Part shown: positions 31,323 through 41,808 of the stretch, piece after piece
Layout: each line of letters opens with the position of its first letter
Position numbering within the stretch: the stretch's first letter is position 1
From: Schizochytrium sp. TIO01
Lineage: Eukaryota; Sar; Bigyra; Thraustochytrida; Thraustochytriidae
NCBI GenBank assembly: GCA_004764695.1
Contig: SMSO01000006.1
Span: forward strand, 1,158,859 to 1,222,858
DNA: 64,000 nt
Direction: 5' to 3'
Position numbers and translations under genes: made by a program
Notes under the pieces: generated by a model
What the model was told of the DNA's origin: nothing
Seen by the model: the letters and a program-made list of their open reading frames with translations, nothing else
Database searches by the model: none

Positions 31323-32777
31323 TTAATATGGGCTTGGGTTATTGTACGAATACTGCGTTGAGTGAGGCTGCTGCGGTTGCTGTGGCTGTTGGTATTGCTG
31401 CGAGTACGACGGATGTTGTACGCCCGGGGGTCCCTGCGCATACGTGGCCGAATAAGGCGCAGACGGCGCTGTACCATATGAAGAAGCAGCGCTACTACTG
31501 CCATGCACTGAAGTGGGGCTTGTGGAATACTGCTGGGCAGGAGAATTGTACATGTGTCCCGAACTTTGGCTAGCAGGAGCCGTGTAACTACTTGCCAGGT
31601 GTGACGAAGGGTATTGAGAGTAAGTCTGCGACGGGGTGGAGGCAGGAAGAGGCATCGTAGAAGTGGTGCTACTGGTGTTGTACAAAGATGTAATTGACTG
31701 AGGGTCAAAAGGAGGTGTCGGGGATGAAGGAGGAGGAGTATAGGTACTTGAAGGAGCAGCATAGCTATCAAAAGGGTTAGATCCGTTCGAAGATGAGTAC
31801 AGGTTGTCATAGGAATGACTCGGGGCTGATGAAGCCATCATCGAAGGAGATGTAGCTGAAGGAGTAGAAGAAGTCAGGTGCATGGAGCCCATAGTCGACG
31901 AAAGGTAATTCACATCAGAGCCAGCACCGTATGAAGCAGAAGCCGAGGGAGCACTGTAGTGTGAGGGAGGTGCTTGCGGTGCAGGAGTGCTGTAGTAAGA
32001 GTCATTTCCAAGATTTGAGCGTGTTGACGCGCTTGCAGCCCAGTTGAACTCTCCATTTGTAGGTACTGTAGCAGTTAAGGTGTTTGCTGACGCGGTTGTC
32101 GCAATGGAAGGACTGAAAGAAGGCTGCGATGAGCTCGCAAATGGGTCTTCTCCACCCCAACCAGAATATGAAGCTGCCACAGGGGCCGCAGCCTGAGCAA
32201 TTGCCTTACCAGTAGGCGCACCTGACTTTTTGCGCTGAGCTTGGAAATCTTTCCACAAGGCCTCTTCGTCGCCTTCGTCATCATCATCACTTGAGTCTCC
32301 ACGAGCAGAGGGTGCGGTCTTATCAGGTTTGTTACCAACGAAATCGTTAAAGCTCATGCGTTTCACATCGCTCGTATCTGCTGCACGCTCAGCATCGCGT
32401 TTGCTCCTGCGCATTTCCTCAAGCTGCTCGAGATTGATGCGTTGAAGGCGATGGAAGGGCACACCATCTACATTAAGATCATAAATGTAGCCCTCGAAAT
32501 GATCACGGATAAAGACCTCCAGAAGCCGACCCCCTGCTCGAAATTGATGATTAAAGTCACCAGTGAACATTTTCTTCTTGTGCAGAACAAGCTGATTGTT
32601 CAACTTAATCTCACGCTTACCACGCACCAAAGAGTGCTTGAGTTCAACCTCATTGGTTTTTAGATCCGGAAGGCACGCAAATTTCCACGTCACTTTAACC
32701 TTGGACCCTTTGACACGCTTGCCAACGTACTCCTTCTCCACGTAAAAGCCAAAAACATCTCCTGACCCACGGCTCAT
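31323..32777 (-). CDS. FAIM-like N-terminal domain with long Ser/Pro/Gln/Tyr-rich tail
   Basis: 484 aa from ATG 32777. Residues ~25-112 form a beta-rich domain: VKVTWKFACLPDL, EVELKHSLVRGKREIKLN, then LLEVFIRDHFEGYIYDLNVD and GVPFHRL. The pattern W-F, V-L-x-H-S-x-x-S/R-GKR, D-x-x-V-DG-V-F resembles the Fas-apoptosis-inhibitory-molecule (FAIM1) beta domain, including its protist versions. This is family resemblance by eye. Residues ~113-190 are charged and helical (EEMRRSKRDAER, EGDEEALWKDFQAQ). The remaining ~290 residues are low-complexity Ser/Ala/Tyr/Pro/Gln, ending in Gln-Pro repeats; such tails are disordered and often aggregation- or condensate-prone. Function unknown. Confidence 0.65.
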   Translation of the reverse strand: MSRGSGDVFGFYVEKEYVGKRVKGSKVKVTWKFACLPDLKTNEVELKHSLVRGKREIKLNNQLVLHKKKMFTGDFNHQFRAGGRLLEVFIRDHFEGYIYDLNVDGVPFHRLQRINLEQLEEMRRSKRDAERAADTSDVKRMSFNDFVGNKPDKTAPSARGDSSDDDDEGDEEALWKDFQAQRKKSGAPTGKAIAQAAAPVAASYSGWGGEDPFASSSQPSFSPSIATTASANTLTATVPTNGEFNWAASASTRSNLGNDSYYSTPAPQAPPSHYSAPSASASYGAGSDVNYLSSTMGSMHLTSSTPSATSPSMMASSAPSHSYDNLYSSSNGSNPFDSYAAPSSTYTPPPSSPTPPFDPQSITSLYNTSSTTSTMPLPASTPSQTYSQYPSSHLASSYTAPASQSSGHMYNSPAQQYSTSPTSVHGSSSAASSYGTAPSAPYSATYAQGPPGVQHPSYSQQYQQPQQPQQPHSTQYSYNNPSPY

Positions 32778-33293: not shown

Positions 33294-33306
33294 ATATCCC
33301 TGGCTA
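33294..33306 (+). repeat. left terminal inverted repeat with flanking ATAT
   Basis: ATAT followed by CCCTGGCTA. Exact reverse complement of 37778-37790. The transposase stop lies about 450 bases inside this end. Confidence 0.8.
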
Positions 33307-33538
33307 AATTCAAAATGTCCCGAATTATGTCCGCAAAATATTTTTGACTAAAATCGCCAGAAAACCCTGTAAAGATCTAAAATCGTAAATTTGATTGTAT
33401 GATCATGTTGAAACAACTGTTTCCCTAAACTGAGCACGATTTCTTTGCAGAAGCAAGCGTATTGAGCTCACGCTACTCGTCCAAAAATTGGCTCACAACC
33501 TCGATAAAACGGCCTAATAGGGCAAATAGGCCTTTAGA

Positions 33539-33565
33539 TTTTCAGGACGTAATACGTCCTGAAAA
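33539..33565. repeat. left subterminal palindrome, 27 bp
   Basis: A perfect palindrome centred on A33552, with core CAGGACGTAATACGTCCTG and TTT/AAA arms. It shares the ACGTAATACGT centre with the right-end palindromes. Probable transposase-binding site, or an element regulating it. Confidence 0.7.
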
Positions 33566-33758
33566 ACTGAACTTTGCATTAGCGAAAACGTATAAGAGTT
33601 TGGGTATTTTGGTTAGTTTAATAGTTTAGTTAATATAAACAATAGTAGTTTATTTTTGCGTTGCTCAAGTCGGAGAAACATCTAAAGATGAAGATTTCGC
33701 GATAAATGAAGATTTTATATAAGCTAAATGTAATATTAATTTTTTGTGTGGATAATTT

Positions 33759-36700
33759 TTATGTATGGAAATGAGGAATCGTAATTTGCTCCTCGCTATG
33801 AAATTTGATATTGCAATGCTTACAAATGTAAGCATTGCAAGTTTGGCACCATCGAGTGGTCTTCCGTGGATTACGATATGGATGGTCTGGCGCCGATCCC
33901 CGTTCGCAATCAACACAACACATAATGCAGGCTCCCCTCTTCTTGAACTTGCCCACGCATTCATGCTGTCCAACTAAACGAGTTTGTAGAAGTTCTGGGA
34001 GTCGTGACTTACTGTATTGATACTGTTGCGGCGATTCTAGCGAGGCTGTAGAAGTAGGCGAAATGGTGTTATCAGTTGCTCTCCAGCAGAATTCTATGTC
34101 AGACATGGAACAAGTATTGTCAAATGGGTAAAGGGATTCCATTGAGACAACCCTAATTTCTTCTGCGAGACTACTTAGATAGCCTCTATAGCAGCACAGA
34201 TTTTTGCGTAGCATTGACCATTCCGTAATTGTTTTACACTTCGATGTGAGGTTCCGATGCTCCATTGAGAGGAGCTGATACGCTCGAAACGAGTTGTATA
34301 AAATATAGTCAATGAATGTTAAACAAACCAAAGCATTAGGAGTCAGCTTTGAAGTACGAATGCTCGCTCCATTGATAGTTTTTCTAGTGATATCAACTCC
34401 GCCCATCATCTTATTCCAGACACTAACAGTCAAAGGCAGTAGGCGTTTGCAAGGCGGTGGGGTTCCGTTGACCAGCACGTCGTCACTATGCCTCCGCCAA
34501 AGCTGCAAAGCGAGTTCGGCACTGTGTAAATCCACAGCATAACCCCAGTCTGGTGATTGGTCTGGTGCAAAACGAGGAAACCTACCAAGTTGATTGCCAT
34601 AAGCAAAGCCCATGTATTCATCACTCAACGCTTTGAAATACTCACGCCATGACTGGCGCTGGGCACATGAGACTTTGATTAGCACTCCTTGCATGATTTC
34701 CTCAGTTGTGGCATATATAAGGAGGGTGTAAGGGACATCTAAAGTAGCTGCATGATGGATACACTGAGTTCGAAACGACGGATTTGGGACTAACGACTCG
34801 AACTCACTTGTTCCACATTTGCATTCGTGCCACGCACTCTGACCAGCAACTCGAGACTTTAACTCATCTATAGTTTTGGCATTTGTACTTGTTTTGATTT
34901 CTAAGGCAAATACATCATCTATAACAAAATTGTTTCCTTCTAGCTCTGTATTCCTCAAAAGAACAGCTGCACCGTCGGGTGAGTCTGCTACAAATTGGAC
35001 TTCCCGATTAATAATCAGACCATATTTGCGTAGCTGGAGAATACAGAATTTATTGGAACTTGCTTTCTTAACCCATCTGGAAAGATCTTTCGCCACGTCT
35101 GCCTCATTTTCAATCCCCAAAGCCAGTGGGTTTTTATGATTCGAAAACCCATTTTGAATAGGCTTCATAAACCAACTTGGTGTGATTGTTCTAAGAAATG
35201 ATTTCTGGCGTTCCTCGAAAGTGCATGTATGGTTATCATCAATCGTTTCAGAATTGTGCAAGGGAAAGCTGTCCCCAATGTCACTACTGTCACTCATTTC
35301 CAGCAGGTCTTGAGTAGTGGACTCCTGAGATGCATGCTGAGGGTGTATGTCTTCCTGTAAGGAAGATAGTTCTCCGTTTGAGACCGTTTCATGATCTATA
35401 GTTCTTGATAGGATGTCTACGATCCGCTTGGCTAGTTCGATCTTTTTGCCATCAGTCTTTGCACCTACATCCAAAGAAAGTAACTTTTGGATAAGCTCAT
35501 TTTTGTTCATACGTTGCATCCAGTATGTATATTCAAGAATAAGACCCTCCCCTTGACGCTTCCTTTTATATTGCTTCTGAGCTCCTTCAGATGAATAAGA
35601 AGAACGCTTATTAGGACGGGGGAATAATGAGATAATTCGTTGCGGGTCAAGACAAGCGAACGATTTCACATCGTGGTGTAAGGCCATAAGCTCATCCGAA
35701 TGAACGAATGGAGCATTTTTAAAGTTGATACAGGTAAAAGCACCGGTGCTTGTAATTCTAAATTGCCGAGCCATAAACCAGTCAGGTGTTCTTTGGGAAA
35801 TTGTCATTGAGAAGATATTGGCGTTCACAAGGTTAATTTTATGATTAGCTTGTGCCTTCATCTTATATGTACTCATGTCACACGGCTCTATCTCAATCTC
35901 AGCATGTGGAACGCGCTTTACACCACCTGGTGAGTTCCAATCTACTCCAGCAGGAAGTACTTCGTAACTCCAAACTTGGTCAGCCAAACAACGGTCGTTC
36001 GTGATGAGTTGTGCAACTCTATGCTTTCCCGCACCGTGACGCATCATCATCGCAGCAACAAAATCGCCATTCTGGTATCTTTGAGCGGTGTAGGTGCTTC
36101 GACGGCCATTCCTGTTAATGATAGTTTGACTTCCCCTCACAGGCGTAGCAGGAACTGGTCCTTCAACATCTATAAACGGGAATGACGAGGTCTTGCGACA
36201 AGTTCCAAGAAATTTGACTCCCTTTGACTGAAGAATTTGAGTTATGTTTGTTGCACGATCCATATCCTGAGGTTTCGATAATGCCAGATAACCACGATCA
36301 ATGAATACACGAAGCTCTGAAGACACAGACGCATCAGGGCTTTCTCCTGACTCCCCCTCATTCAGAAAATCTATTGCCTTGCTTACAATTTTATGAACAG
36401 GTGAGTGGGAAGTCTCTAACCGTGGTACTAGGAGCAGACCTGTACCCACAGAGCACACAAGATGTATCACGGGTTTCTGTTTTTTTGTTTTCGTTGGAAT
36501 GGTACGAATTCCAAAATTCTCCCACTGAGGAGAACCATAGGGAAGCTTGTCGTCATCAAGATCGATCCAAGTGGTTTTAGGGACAAAGAACATCTTCACC
36601 CAATGGCGCTGAGCAGCACCTCCCATTTCATGGATGATCGGACTTGAGGAGCATACTCTAGCCTCGCGTGACCCTTTTGTTGCCCGATTGGACTTGTCCA

Positions 36701-37274
36701 GGCTCATTGCCTTTCGAACTTTTGAATAGGATACCGTATGGGCTAGATTCCAATGACCTGGTGGGTCCTCAAGACACTCCGAGAACGACTTTCCTGCAAC
36801 TCGCAGAGAAATTTCAACGAGAAGGTAGGCACGGAAATCTTGATCCGTGATAGAAAATGGCGGAGATGCGTTTGAGCTAAGACTATTCAACCATTCCTTA
36901 ACTGCAATCACCCAGCCTGGCGGCAAACAAATCTTGAAACTATCAAGCCTGGTAAATTTGTAGTTATTGTCAACACGAAGAACCTTTCGAATCCTTTTAG
37001 TAATCTCCGAACTTTCTTGTTGAACCTTGGGGAGCATTAATTCGCTTGAGCAATTGTACTTGAGTTGGACTGCGTTCATGCCAAGTTGAGACCCAGATAG
37101 GTTGCTGTGGTACTTTGCGCCTTCAGTGGAGTAAGATTGAAAGGTCCAGTTTTCATGGCCAGGAGTACTTGCCGATGAACACTCATAGAGATCGTTCTCG
37201 TCTTCATCAGAAGAAGACTCATCAGAGGAAATGTAGATTGAGTCCTTGTCATTCTCGACGTCATCTAGAGACAT
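33759..37274 (-). CDS. piggyBac-like transposase with inserted SAP and YqaJ-type nuclease domains, 1171 aa
   Basis: One frame from ATG 37274. Residues ~210-380 are the first part of a DDE_Tnp_1_7 core: DLDDDKLPYGS (first Asp ~238-242), HLVCSVGTGLLL, and VFIDRGYLALS (second Asp326). The third catalytic Asp961 is in VWNKMMGGVDITRK, the piggyBac N-K-x-MGGVD signature. Between them lie QRTPDWFMARQFRITST (494-510, YqaJ entry motif), a SAP-like helix pair NKNELIQKLLSLDVGAKTDG to RIVDIL (591-621), and the PD-(D/E)XK site DSPDG (764-768) with ALEIKTS (790-796). The C-terminus has a Cys/His domain (CIMCCVDC, CQTCNAYICKHC, FH; 1116-1159), as in piggyBac transposases. It should cut and paste the element; the nuclease role is unknown. 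All expected catalytic acids are present, so it could be active. Confidence 0.88.
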   Translation of the reverse strand: MSLDDVENDKDSIYISSDESSSDEDENDLYECSSASTPGHENWTFQSYSTEGAKYHSNLSGSQLGMNAVQLKYNCSSELMLPKVQQESSEITKRIRKVLRVDNNYKFTRLDSFKICLPPGWVIAVKEWLNSLSSNASPPFSITDQDFRAYLLVEISLRVAGKSFSECLEDPPGHWNLAHTVSYSKVRKAMSLDKSNRATKGSREARVCSSSPIIHEMGGAAQRHWVKMFFVPKTTWIDLDDDKLPYGSPQWENFGIRTIPTKTKKQKPVIHLVCSVGTGLLLVPRLETSHSPVHKIVSKAIDFLNEGESGESPDASVSSELRVFIDRGYLALSKPQDMDRATNITQILQSKGVKFLGTCRKTSSFPFIDVEGPVPATPVRGSQTIINRNGRRSTYTAQRYQNGDFVAAMMMRHGAGKHRVAQLITNDRCLADQVWSYEVLPAGVDWNSPGGVKRVPHAEIEIEPCDMSTYKMKAQANHKINLVNANIFSMTISQRTPDWFMARQFRITSTGAFTCINFKNAPFVHSDELMALHHDVKSFACLDPQRIISLFPRPNKRSSYSSEGAQKQYKRKRQGEGLILEYTYWMQRMNKNELIQKLLSLDVGAKTDGKKIELAKRIVDILSRTIDHETVSNGELSSLQEDIHPQHASQESTTQDLLEMSDSSDIGDSFPLHNSETIDDNHTCTFEERQKSFLRTITPSWFMKPIQNGFSNHKNPLALGIENEADVAKDLSRWVKKASSNKFCILQLRKYGLIINREVQFVADSPDGAAVLLRNTELEGNNFVIDDVFALEIKTSTNAKTIDELKSRVAGQSAWHECKCGTSEFESLVPNPSFRTQCIHHAATLDVPYTLLIYATTEEIMQGVLIKVSCAQRQSWREYFKALSDEYMGFAYGNQLGRFPRFAPDQSPDWGYAVDLHSAELALQLWRRHSDDVLVNGTPPPCKRLLPLTVSVWNKMMGGVDITRKTINGASIRTSKLTPNALVCLTFIDYILYNSFRAYQLLSMEHRNLTSKCKTITEWSMLRKNLCCYRGYLSSLAEEIRVVSMESLYPFDNTCSMSDIEFCWRATDNTISPTSTASLESPQQYQYSKSRLPELLQTRLVGQHECVGKFKKRGACIMCCVDCERGSAPDHPYRNPRKTTRWCQTCNAYICKHCNIKFHSEEQITIPHFHT

Positions 37275-37690
37275 GACACACAGCTGACGTTAAACTCAAG
37301 CGCCAATGGACCTCTTCGCTGAGGGAAGTGCTGATAGATCCCAAGTAGACTAGCAAGTGGACGATGAAGTAAGGTATGATGTACTTTTGTTGGTACTGCT
37401 GGCACTACATGCTGGCGCAAGATATTATTGATGTTTATCAGTATTAATTGTCTGGTAGAACAGGTACCGTGGGAGAACCTAACGACCATGTGTCAAATAC
37501 CTGTTAACCTAACCACCACCTAACCGCCACTGAGAATGTCATTGTTTGGTCCTAAACTCAACTATCAATCGGAGAATCATGAGAACATGATAACATATGG
37601 ACAGGTGAGGTCGGGGAGGGTAAACTAAACGAGTTTCATCCCGAACAGAGCTAGACTGTTGAATTGATCAATGACTCAAGTAGGTACATA

Positions 37691-37717
37691 TTTTTCGGGA
37701 CGTAATAAGTCCTTAAA
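37691..37717. repeat. degenerate copy of the right palindrome
   Basis: TTTTTCGGGACGTAATAAGT followed by CCTTAAA, an imperfect version of the 31-base palindrome that lies about 30 bases to its right. Confidence 0.6.
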
Positions 37718-37747
37718 TACTCTACCGGGAAAATTAAAGTTTATCCG

Positions 37748-37778
37748 ATTTTTCGGGACGTAATACGTCCCGAAAAAT
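37748..37778. repeat. right subterminal palindrome, 31 bp
   Basis: A perfect palindrome centred on A37763, with core CGGGACGTAATACGTCCCG and T-rich/A-rich arms. It abuts the right terminal inverted repeat. Same centre as the left palindrome. Confidence 0.75.
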
Positions 37779-37790
37779 AGCCAGGGATAT
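37778..37790 (-). repeat. right terminal inverted repeat with flanking ATAT
   Basis: TAGCCAGGG followed by ATAT, the exact inverse of the left end. Confidence 0.8.
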
Positions 37791-39936: not shown

Positions 39937-41808
39937 ATGCTCTTCTCTTCGAGCGCTCGTGTAGAAGACTCGGGAAATCCATCATCCGATGGAGGCTCTT
40001 CGATTGGCTGGGGCAATGCAGGTCACCTTGATGGAATTCACGTCCGTCGACGTGTGAGCAGCAATGGTACGCGTAATTCATCTAGCGACTACGGAGACAT
40101 CCACAACCCGCATCCATTTCATCACCACGGTGAACATAATGGCCACCACGGGGAGGTAGATCTGCATCATGTTGGGACAAGCTCCCACCGCAACGGATTC
40201 ACTGAAGTCAACCTGCATGATGAAGACGCATCATCTGTTTTTGGCGACCATGTGCACGCTATTGACACGAACGAGACCAAGCAGGGCTTGAACATGTGGC
40301 GGCTTGCAGCGCTAACTTTTTTTACCGTCTCTGGCGGTCCGTACGGTCTGGAACCGCTAATTATGACTGTTGGACCCTATTACAGTATTATTGGCCTGTT
40401 GCTAGTACCATGGGTTTGGGGTATGCCGTGCGCATTAATGACAGCAGAGTTGGCTTCAGCCATTCCAGAAATGGGTGGTTATATCTCGTGGGTGCAGCGT
40501 ACAATGGGTGACTTTTGGGCCTTTCAGAACGGTATTTGGAACATCTTTAGCAACACGTTGGATAACACTTTGTACCCAGTCATGTTCGTTGATTATATTG
40601 AAGAGATGATGGGCCCAACCTTTGAGTTTAGTTTTATGACACGATTTCTGATCGGCTCAATCATGGTTATCTTTCTCGGGTTTGTGAATGTTATTGGTGT
40701 TGATGTGGTGGGAGATGGTGCCAGTGTTTTCGGTGTGTTTGTGATTTTGCCATTTCTTGTAATGGTTATAATCGGTTTTGCTTCTGGCGAAGTGGAGCCT
40801 AGTGATTGGGGTAAATCTACGCCAAGTCTCGACTTTGGTCTTTATGTTTCCATGCTTTTGTGGAACACCTGTGGCTACGATTCAGCCGGTACGTGTGCTG
40901 CCGAAGTAGAGAATCCAGGTAAAATTTACCCCCGTGCTATGCTTTTGACAATCGTCTCTACCACTTTGCTCTATGTTCTTCCAATTATGGTCGGTGTTTC
41001 TTTTGCAACGGACTACTCAGCTTGGGATGACGGTCATTTTGTTACGATTGGTGAATTGATCGGAGGTAAATTTCTCAAAATCTTTGTCCTTGTTGCAGGT
41101 TGTGTATCTTCGCTGGGTCTGCTAAACTCTACAATGTGCACGTCATCACGTGCACTGGCATGCATTGCTGGATTTGGCTATGCCCCCAAAGTTGTAGCCC
41201 GTATCCATCCTAAATATGGAACACCAGTTGTGGCTATCTTTCTTAATTCAATCTCCATCATTGCCTTGGTGGCTACAGGTCTTGACTTCGAGTCTATTGC
41301 ACAAATGTCCATGTGGCTCTATGCACTTACCCTATCGTTTGAGTTTTTTGCGCTCATGCTACTGCGCACGCAAGAGCCCGAACTTGAGCGGCCTTACCGG
41401 ATTCCTCTTGGCTACTGGTCGTTGTGGGTGATGTGCTCCCTTCCTTTGGGGTGCTGTGTCTTTCTTCTCGTACTTTCGGAGGCCCAAACCTGGTACATTT
41501 GCACAGGTATTCTAATTTTTGGTCTTATCATGCTTATCCCATATTATATCACTAGTGGCAAGCCAGTTATCTTGCCCAGGCCTCTCCAGGGCCTGTGCTA
41601 CTTGTGTTGCCGCTGCAATGCATTTCGTCCAGTCAAGGTTGACGAGCAAGATGCGGACGCAACTGAGATCCCAGATACAAAATTCACCACAGATAATGCT
41701 GCAGAGGTTCAAATGACCGACCTCAACCTTAGTGCTGCGAGGCGAAAAGAGCATACCTCTTTTGATGAAGAGGATGAGAATGACTTAGAACCACTGCAAT
41801 TTACCTGA
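39937..41808 (+). CDS. amino acid/polyamine permease (APC superfamily, PUT/LAT-like)
   Basis: 623 aa from ATG 39937. A ~115-residue cytosolic N-terminus is His/Ser/Asp-rich (several HH pairs). The transmembrane core begins LAALTFFTVSGGPYGLEPL, whose GGPYGLE is the TM1 substrate-backbone motif typical of plant/protist polyamine uptake transporters (GGPFGxE). About 12 hydrophobic segments follow, including PWVWGMPCALMTAELASAIP with EMGGYISWV (TM2-3) and WNTCGYDSAGTCAAEVENPG (TM6 and conserved loop). The C-terminal ~75 residues are hydrophilic and acidic. Likely imports polyamines or amino acids across the plasma membrane or an endomembrane; substrate not determinable. Single exon. Confidence 0.9.
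   Translation: MLFSSSARVEDSGNPSSDGGSSIGWGNAGHLDGIHVRRRVSSNGTRNSSSDYGDIHNPHPFHHHGEHNGHHGEVDLHHVGTSSHRNGFTEVNLHDEDASSVFGDHVHAIDTNETKQGLNMWRLAALTFFTVSGGPYGLEPLIMTVGPYYSIIGLLLVPWVWGMPCALMTAELASAIPEMGGYISWVQRTMGDFWAFQNGIWNIFSNTLDNTLYPVMFVDYIEEMMGPTFEFSFMTRFLIGSIMVIFLGFVNVIGVDVVGDGASVFGVFVILPFLVMVIIGFASGEVEPSDWGKSTPSLDFGLYVSMLLWNTCGYDSAGTCAAEVENPGKIYPRAMLLTIVSTTLLYVLPIMVGVSFATDYSAWDDGHFVTIGELIGGKFLKIFVLVAGCVSSLGLLNSTMCTSSRALACIAGFGYAPKVVARIHPKYGTPVVAIFLNSISIIALVATGLDFESIAQMSMWLYALTLSFEFFALMLLRTQEPELERPYRIPLGYWSLWVMCSLPLGCCVFLLVLSEAQTWYICTGILIFGLIMLIPYYITSGKPVILPRPLQGLCYLCCRCNAFRPVKVDEQDADATEIPDTKFTTDNAAEVQMTDLNLSAARRKEHTSFDEEDENDLEPLQFT

Follow-up and report, generated by a model that had tools for sequence, protein, structure and literature searches.

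The window is a stretch of 64,000 nucleotides from Schizochytrium sp. TIO01 (contig SMSO01000006.1). It contains a transposon whose single open reading frame (ORF) encodes a putative piggyBac-type transposase with a YqaJ-type nuclease between its second (D2) and third (D3) catalytic aspartates. The element and its protein have the following features, where D1 is the first catalytic aspartate, TIR a terminal inverted repeat and TSD a target site duplication.

33298..37786, minus strand: complete transposon of 4489 bp, with boundaries from seven 100% identical DNA copies that have unrelated flanks
37786, minus strand: left element end (5' of the ORF), from copy comparison
37778..37786, minus strand: left TIR CCCTGGCTA, 9 bp
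33298..33306, read on the plus strand: right TIR CCCTGGCTA, 9 bp
37787..37790, unstranded: left copy of the TSD ATAT
33294..33297, unstranded: right copy of the TSD ATAT
37748..37778, unstranded: perfect 31-bp palindrome ATTTTTCGGGACGTATTACGTCCCGAAAAAT with 15-bp arms and a 1-nt centre, element positions 9-39
33539..33565, unstranded: 27-bp palindrome TTTTCAGGACGTATTACGTCCTGAAAA, related to the 31-bp one, 241 bp inside the right tip
33759..37274, minus strand: single intronless ORF with ATG start and no internal stop, predicted transposase-nuclease of 1171 aa
36600..37040, minus strand: residues 79-225, likely place of the piggyBac dimerization and DNA-binding domain (DDBD), judged from its position relative to D1
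36195..36599, minus strand: residues 226-360, predicted first part of the RNase H-like core
36549-36551 and 36297-36299, minus strand: codons of D242 and D326
35835..36194, minus strand: residues 361-480, likely place of the piggyBac beta-stranded insertion domain, from a by-eye alignment of piggyBac VYLLSS with AQLITN (PMC7351741)
34470..35834, minus strand: residues 481-935, extra segment between D2 and D3
35745..35795, minus strand: putative YqaJ entry motif QRTPDWFMARQFRITST, residues 494-510
35355..35552, minus strand: SAP-like stretch, residues about 575-640 (Pfam SAP E=0.043, below cut-off)
34575..35222, minus strand: YqaJ-like PD-(D/E)XK core, residues 685-900, with G720-x3-E724, D767, E792-x-K794 and Q837, from hhalign against a phage YqaJ profile
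34245..34469, minus strand: residues 936-1010, D3 helix with GGVD961 (codon 34392-34394), from hhalign to piggyBac and piggyBat
33762..33944, minus strand: residues 1111-1171, predicted C-terminal Cys/His zinc domain of the cysteine-rich domain (CRD) type, from invariant ligands and from zf-Tnp_2 in the relative L031

Copies and relatives were sought in the host genome (64 Mb, 37 contigs) by a translated search with the 1171-aa ORF, and seven full-length copies with 100% protein identity were found on six contigs. A base-by-base comparison showed all seven to share the 4489 bp without a single difference, while their flanks diverge immediately outside. Every copy carries the 9-bp TIR CCCTGGCTA together with its own perfect 4-bp TSD, and none has lost a base from its tips. 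Each of the seven copies goes back to its own, very recent insertion of a mobile element. Besides them the family was observed to consist only of one degraded copy and two lone ends. A lone left end (87%; G000:C33:399322-399516) and a lone right end (85%; G000:C31:2011616-2011913) belong to an older relative of the window element. Short internally deleted copies (miniature inverted-repeat transposable elements) were not found in the host genome with either end as probe.

A second mobile family is represented by L034, which encodes an 1175-aa protein that is 40% identical to the window protein and in which the motifs follow in the same order. The L034 element measures 4389 bp, with the TIR CCCTGGATA and the TSD CTAA, and a degenerate partner (L033, 97-98% identical) has the same TIR and the TSD CTAG. 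The sequence-only reading had proposed a search of repeat libraries and related genomes for copies with the same motif order; in the host genome such copies exist as the seven identical ones and this 40%-identical family. It had also said that evidence for two separate genes, fused here through assembly error or unrecognised introns, would undo it. An artefact of this kind, or a unique insertion event in a dead transposon, would agree with the failure of standard models to recognise either half at cut-off, but seven identical copies occur in full on six contigs and the order recurs in the second family and in several diverged relatives, all of them single ORFs. Since the seven identical copies represent independent recent insertions, assembly error and missed introns are ruled out as the origin of the fusion. 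The artefact is refuted by the copies, and we regard it in any of its forms as exceedingly improbable.

The residues named for the transposase by the sequence-only reading, D326 and D961, were found at the positions claimed, D326 within FIDRGYLA and D961 within WNKMMGGVD. The first catalytic aspartate is most likely D242 because it is invariant in the four longest members and its spacing to the IPTK lysine resembles that of piggyBac (20 residues compared to 19). The D3 block aligned with piggyBac (6x67) and piggyBat (9c0f) by hhalign with P=1.4e-4, and none of 80 column shuffles was as good. Upstream of the extra segment, IRTIPTKTKK would correspond to FRMYIPNKPSK of piggyBac and GVKFLGTCRK to LTIVGTVRSN. 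In the C-terminal domain ten Cys/His ligands are invariant in 5 members. The zf-Tnp_2 model matched this domain in the paralog L031 with E=6.5e-5 and 23.8 bits, which is 0.2 under the cut-off of 24, and left the window protein unmatched.

The TIRs CCCTGGCTA and CCCTGGATA begin with CCC(T) as in piggyBac, whose tip is CCCTAGAAAG (PMC7351741). In piggyBac a CRD dimer binds a 19-bp palindromic internal repeat, which lies near the tip at the left end and farther in at the right (PMC7351741). By analogy, we propose that the zinc-domain dimer may bind the 31-bp palindrome. At the equivalent position behind its left tip, family 2 carries a palindromic pair of different sequence, TTGTCTACG-AAATA-CGTAGACAA. 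The piggyBac assignment is a putative one, drawn from D3, the CRD and the element ends.

The TSDs of the window family are ATAT, TTAT, TTAA, CTAA, TTAT, ATAG and TTAG. Together with those of L034 and L033, all nine are 4 bp long and follow the pattern N-TA-N. A central TA in all nine has a chance of 2.7e-12, given that TA forms 5.2% of the dinucleotides in the window. In the piggyBac element Pokey about 10-12% of insertions are at non-TTAA sites (TTAT, ATAA, CTAA), and its authors concluded that the essential target bases are the middle T and A only (PMC3849761). Relaxed outer target bases were also reported for piggyBac elements at 7.2% in bat and 2.4% in human cells (PMC3849761). The N-TA-N targeting of both families looks like an extreme of this relaxed targeting. 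Of the two A bases of TTAA, the outer one is the stacking partner of Y283 in piggyBac and the inner one is read by N440 (PMC7351741). Our own alignment places T258 of the window protein (L in family 2) at Y283 and keeps N440 as N954, which would fit a fixed TA core with free outer positions.

The distance from D326 to D961 is 635 residues, as the sequence-only reading had it against about 100 in an ordinary piggyBac transposase; the piggyBac value is 101 (D346-D447; PMC7351741). The extra segment (about 481-935) follows the usual beta-stranded insertion domain, after its last strand, and DDE/D transposases carry insertion domains at the matching topological place (PMC7351741). Its motifs occur in YqaJ order. 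The entry motif QRTPDWFMARQFRITS (494-509, with QxTxDWFxAR at 494-503), SPDG (765-768, containing D767) and LEIKT (791-795, containing E792-x-K794) all stand where they had been placed from the sequence, with G720-x3-E724 after the entry motif and an R/TQ-x2-HH motif (Q837) last. Phage YqaJ exonucleases, lambda exonuclease and mimivirus R354 (PF09588) share with the window protein the order QxxxWxxxR, GxxxE, (S)PDG, E-x-K and Q motif. These proteins stand alone, whereas the window nuclease would lie inside a transposase and, unlike them, has about 200 extra residues, including the SAP-like stretch, between entry motif and core.

For comparison by hhalign with column-shuffled controls, a YqaJ profile was built from phage YqaJ exonucleases, mimivirus R354 and 3syy. 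None of 80 shuffles scored as well as the nuclease core profile, and a seven-member core profile reached 37.5 compared to a shuffled maximum of 18.1 (60 shuffles). The seven-member match covers SPDG, E-x-K, the Q motif and the strands and helix that follow. The only Pfam match of the L034 core was PF09588 (E=0.0095, 16.6 bits, below the cut-off of 22), and its best PHROG was a RecE-like exonuclease (E=0.045). SAP (PF02037) gave a weak match at residues about 604-619 (E=0.043, 13.9 bits compared to a cut-off of 23.9). In the proposed profile check, none of the DDE_Tnp_1_7, YqaJ and SAP models reached its cut-off on the window protein. The nested order of transposase and YqaJ nuclease held up in the motifs, the profiles, the two families and the TIRs, TSDs and palindrome, while the SAP part of the claim stayed weak. 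Chance is excluded because there are seven identical copies, the same order occurs in a 40%-identical family and the profiles of both halves beat their shuffles. An anatomy of a piggyBac-type transposase with a YqaJ-type nuclease in the D2-D3 gap is, from these motifs and profiles, very probably correct.

Both mobile families retain every one of the nuclease residues E, D, E-x-K and Q despite an overall identity of 40%, and the transposase site is conserved in them as well. Non-synonymous divergence (dN) between the families was 0.51 in the nuclease core and 0.55 in the first RNase H part, compared to about 1.1 in the SAP region and linkers and 0.94 in the DDBD, with synonymous divergence (dS) saturated throughout. 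The nuclease core is therefore as constrained as the RNase H core in this comparison of sequences. The dN/dS ratios of mobile and freshly dead copies were too noisy for conclusions about single domains. Six relatives with long ORFs were also found:

L035, C6:1.87M: ORF L035:2740-6540
L031, C30:1.54M: ORF L031:2789-6715
L032, C30:2.81M: ORF L032:1348-5085
L065, C6:2.39M: ORF L065:173-3694, minus strand
L066, C13:4.23M: ORF L066:1-3666, minus strand
L067, C36:4.00M: ORF L067:238-1863, minus strand

These have about 20-35% identity, open frames of 542-1309 aa and degraded nuclease motifs, and the E-x-K site is lost in all six. No CCC-type TIRs with a matching TSD were found at L035, L031 and L032, and the flanks of L065, L066 and L067 are too short for a full check. 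The six are candidate domesticated genes because ORFs of >1100 codons at such divergence would need selection to stay open. The intact residues and the constraint, together with the loss of E-x-K in the relatives (weak by itself), suggest that the nuclease is used. Retention of its residues in mobile families and their loss in apparently immobile relatives would speak for a function in end processing, such as the trimming of excised or donor ends that the sequence-only reading suggested. In a family-2-like relic (G000:C31:3016818-3018259; L019, L021, L026), residues 358-984 are gone at one junction (NVSFLG joined to NTLYNAFR), and the removed part comprises the insertion domain, the nuclease and D3.

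Several results weigh against the fusion of a piggyBac transposase with a working nuclease. Pfam gave nothing above cut-off on the window protein, whole or piecewise, and DDE_Tnp_1_7 was unmatched by the whole protein and also after the extra segment had been cut out. The residues upstream of that segment were assigned by motif because they did not score alone against piggyBac by hhalign (P=0.28), and TTAA was observed in only one of the nine TSDs. The same observations could indicate that the element belongs to a DDD superfamily of its own, in which a CCC terminus and TA-centred 4-bp duplications arose by convergence. This we consider quite improbable, as the D3 block, (Y/W)N...GGVD with its following helix, outscores all shuffles, the CRD-type zinc domain, the CCCT tip and the palindrome beside it accompany this block, and the middle-TA rule is common to Pokey and piggyBac.

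Further points on the same side concern the nuclease. PF09588 did not match the window copy, and shallow profiles kept the hhalign probabilities at a modest 27-65%. AlphaFold predictions made without an alignment were uninformative, with a predicted local distance difference test (pLDDT) of 33.5 for the whole protein and 39.8 for the core; the helix-strand order of this low-confidence core model is compatible with PD-(D/E)XK, to which we give little weight, and Foldseek with it returned no matches. The contrast of mobile and immobile members involves small numbers and fails to isolate the nuclease because most of the long relatives have lost D3 too. A catalytically idle DNA-binding or architectural module, in effect an enlarged insertion domain with SAP aiding binding, would agree with the PF09588 and SAP matches below cut-off and with the persistence of several long relatives that have no nuclease residues, among them L031, which keeps the DDD aspartates with its nuclease site gone. 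We find an idle module doubtful, given that neither mobile family has lost E, D, E-x-K or Q and that the core changes no faster than the RNase H core.

A PDB sequence search with the single protein and with a 4-member profile returned chance matches only, and IMG/VR scans found no relatives of the fusion, of a stand-alone YqaJ or of piggyBac. A stand-alone 428-aa YqaJ-type nuclease gene was noticed elsewhere in the host genome (L040:4053-5336(-), G000:C36:4.089M; PF09588 E=4.4e-22). It resembles phage exonucleases and mimivirus R354 (5yeu), and no transposase ORF was recognised beside it. Three further single ORFs (L037:1467-4424, L038:2691-5228 and L039:2135-5314) have DDE_Tnp_1_7 matches, no TIRs that could be found and catalytic aspartates that are apparently lost, and are probably domesticated genes derived from ordinary piggyBac elements.

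With the superfamily of piggyBac, piggyBat and Pokey the window element has in common the DDD triad, the GGVD third aspartate, the CCCT tips, the 4-bp TSD with a central TA, the C-terminal Cys/His domain of cross-brace type and the palindromic internal repeat near the left tip. It differs from piggyBac in the Pfam score, in a D2-D3 distance filled by a YqaJ-like nuclease, in having TTAA as the exception and not the rule, and in the replacement of Y283 where N440 is kept. Taken as a whole, with the nuclease included, the element is probably a eukaryotic DNA transposon of the piggyBac group, autonomous and recently active.

Two other eukaryotic systems were compared. ISL2EU of the PHIS superfamily, which moves by cut and paste, also codes for a YqaJ exonuclease domain (PMC4482050). 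Its YqaJ is a separate second ORF beside a PIF/Harbinger-like transposase with THAP, its TSD is the dinucleotide AT and GG stands at the tips of its TIRs; the single ORF, the 4-bp NTAN TSD and the CCC tips of the window element led us to reject membership. The closest architectural precedent that we found is Dada of Laccaria bicolor and Ectocarpus siliculosus, where a nuclease domain lies inside the transposase after the second catalytic aspartate (PMC3706591). In Dada this is a DEDDy 3'-5' exonuclease of unrelated fold in an unrelated transposase superfamily that targets small RNA genes, and membership was rejected in view of the PD-(D/E)XK motifs and TA-centred 4-bp sites of the window element. 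No description of a piggyBac-YqaJ fusion was found in the literature; the search lay outside Repbase, Dfam and eukaryotic proteomes, where an uncommented entry may exist. Already known, then, are YqaJ in eukaryotic transposons as a separate ORF and a nuclease in the gap, and apparently new is the combination of piggyBac and YqaJ in one protein.

Enzymes of the YqaJ/lambda exonuclease family degrade DNA in a metal-dependent manner from 5' ends (5' to 3'). The chemistry of piggyBac comprises 3' nicking, 4-nt hairpins, integration with 5' flaps and a donor break with complementary 5' overhangs (PMC7351741). In the mechanism that we propose, the RNase H-type DDD site (D242, D326, D961) would cut and paste the element at 4-bp N-TA-N targets, and the YqaJ-type PD-(D/E)XK nuclease would occupy the RNase H core loop where there is normally only a small insertion domain. 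The nuclease would act in cis on the DNA ends that arise in transposition; whether it is active there at all seems to us, from its sequence, evenly poised. It would meet 5'-ended strands either as donor overhangs, leading to resection, or as 5' flaps at the new junctions, leading to trimming.

Trimming of the transposon's own ends, that is of 4-nt 5' flaps or hairpin-derived overhangs at target junctions, would leave the donor to host repair. The extra segment adjoins the insertion domain, which lines the hairpin and target channel in piggyBac, and piggyBac chemistry leaves a 4-nt 5' flap (PMC7351741); the authors of the Dada study also propose end processing for the exonuclease in the same gap (PMC3706591). 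However, piggyBac manages without an enzyme of this kind and can do without its flap in vitro (PMC7351741), and the perfect 4-bp TSDs and whole tips of all seven copies mean that any trimming would be exact. Trimming of own ends therefore appears rather unlikely.

In our view the most likely substrate would be the 5'-ended strands of the donor break, because YqaJ relatives run 5' to 3' and the piggyBac break has 5' overhangs. The donor would be favoured over the flaps because piggyBac flaps need no help and steered donor repair would raise copy number. After resection, a gap that could have been religated seamlessly would be repaired from the sister copy instead, and this repair would restore the element at the donor site, so that its copy number rises. 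Donor resection specifically is a tentative suggestion by analogy. Equally tentative is the wider possibility that a piggyBac-group lineage internalised a 5'-3' YqaJ exonuclease which resects the donor break with a net gain of copies, and seeded its host with single-copy, catalytically reduced derivative genes.

In the window, the element sits between an ORF with a FAIM1 domain (31323-32777; E=5.8e-6), which adjoins it, and an amino acid permease gene (39937-41808).

Among transposons, piggyBac is the textbook case of seamless departure from the donor site, with its own DDD site as the only nuclease required. A member that is mobile in nature and has an exonuclease-type domain built in would permit a direct test of transposon-steered break repair. 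In the window element one protein may both excise the element and process the DNA ends so made. The window element may also provide a natural piggyBac relative with relaxed (NTAN) targeting. If the proposal is true, then together with ISL2EU, which has its YqaJ in trans, and Dada, it would suggest that end-processing nucleases were taken up by transposons on several occasions, two of them into the D2-D3 gap.

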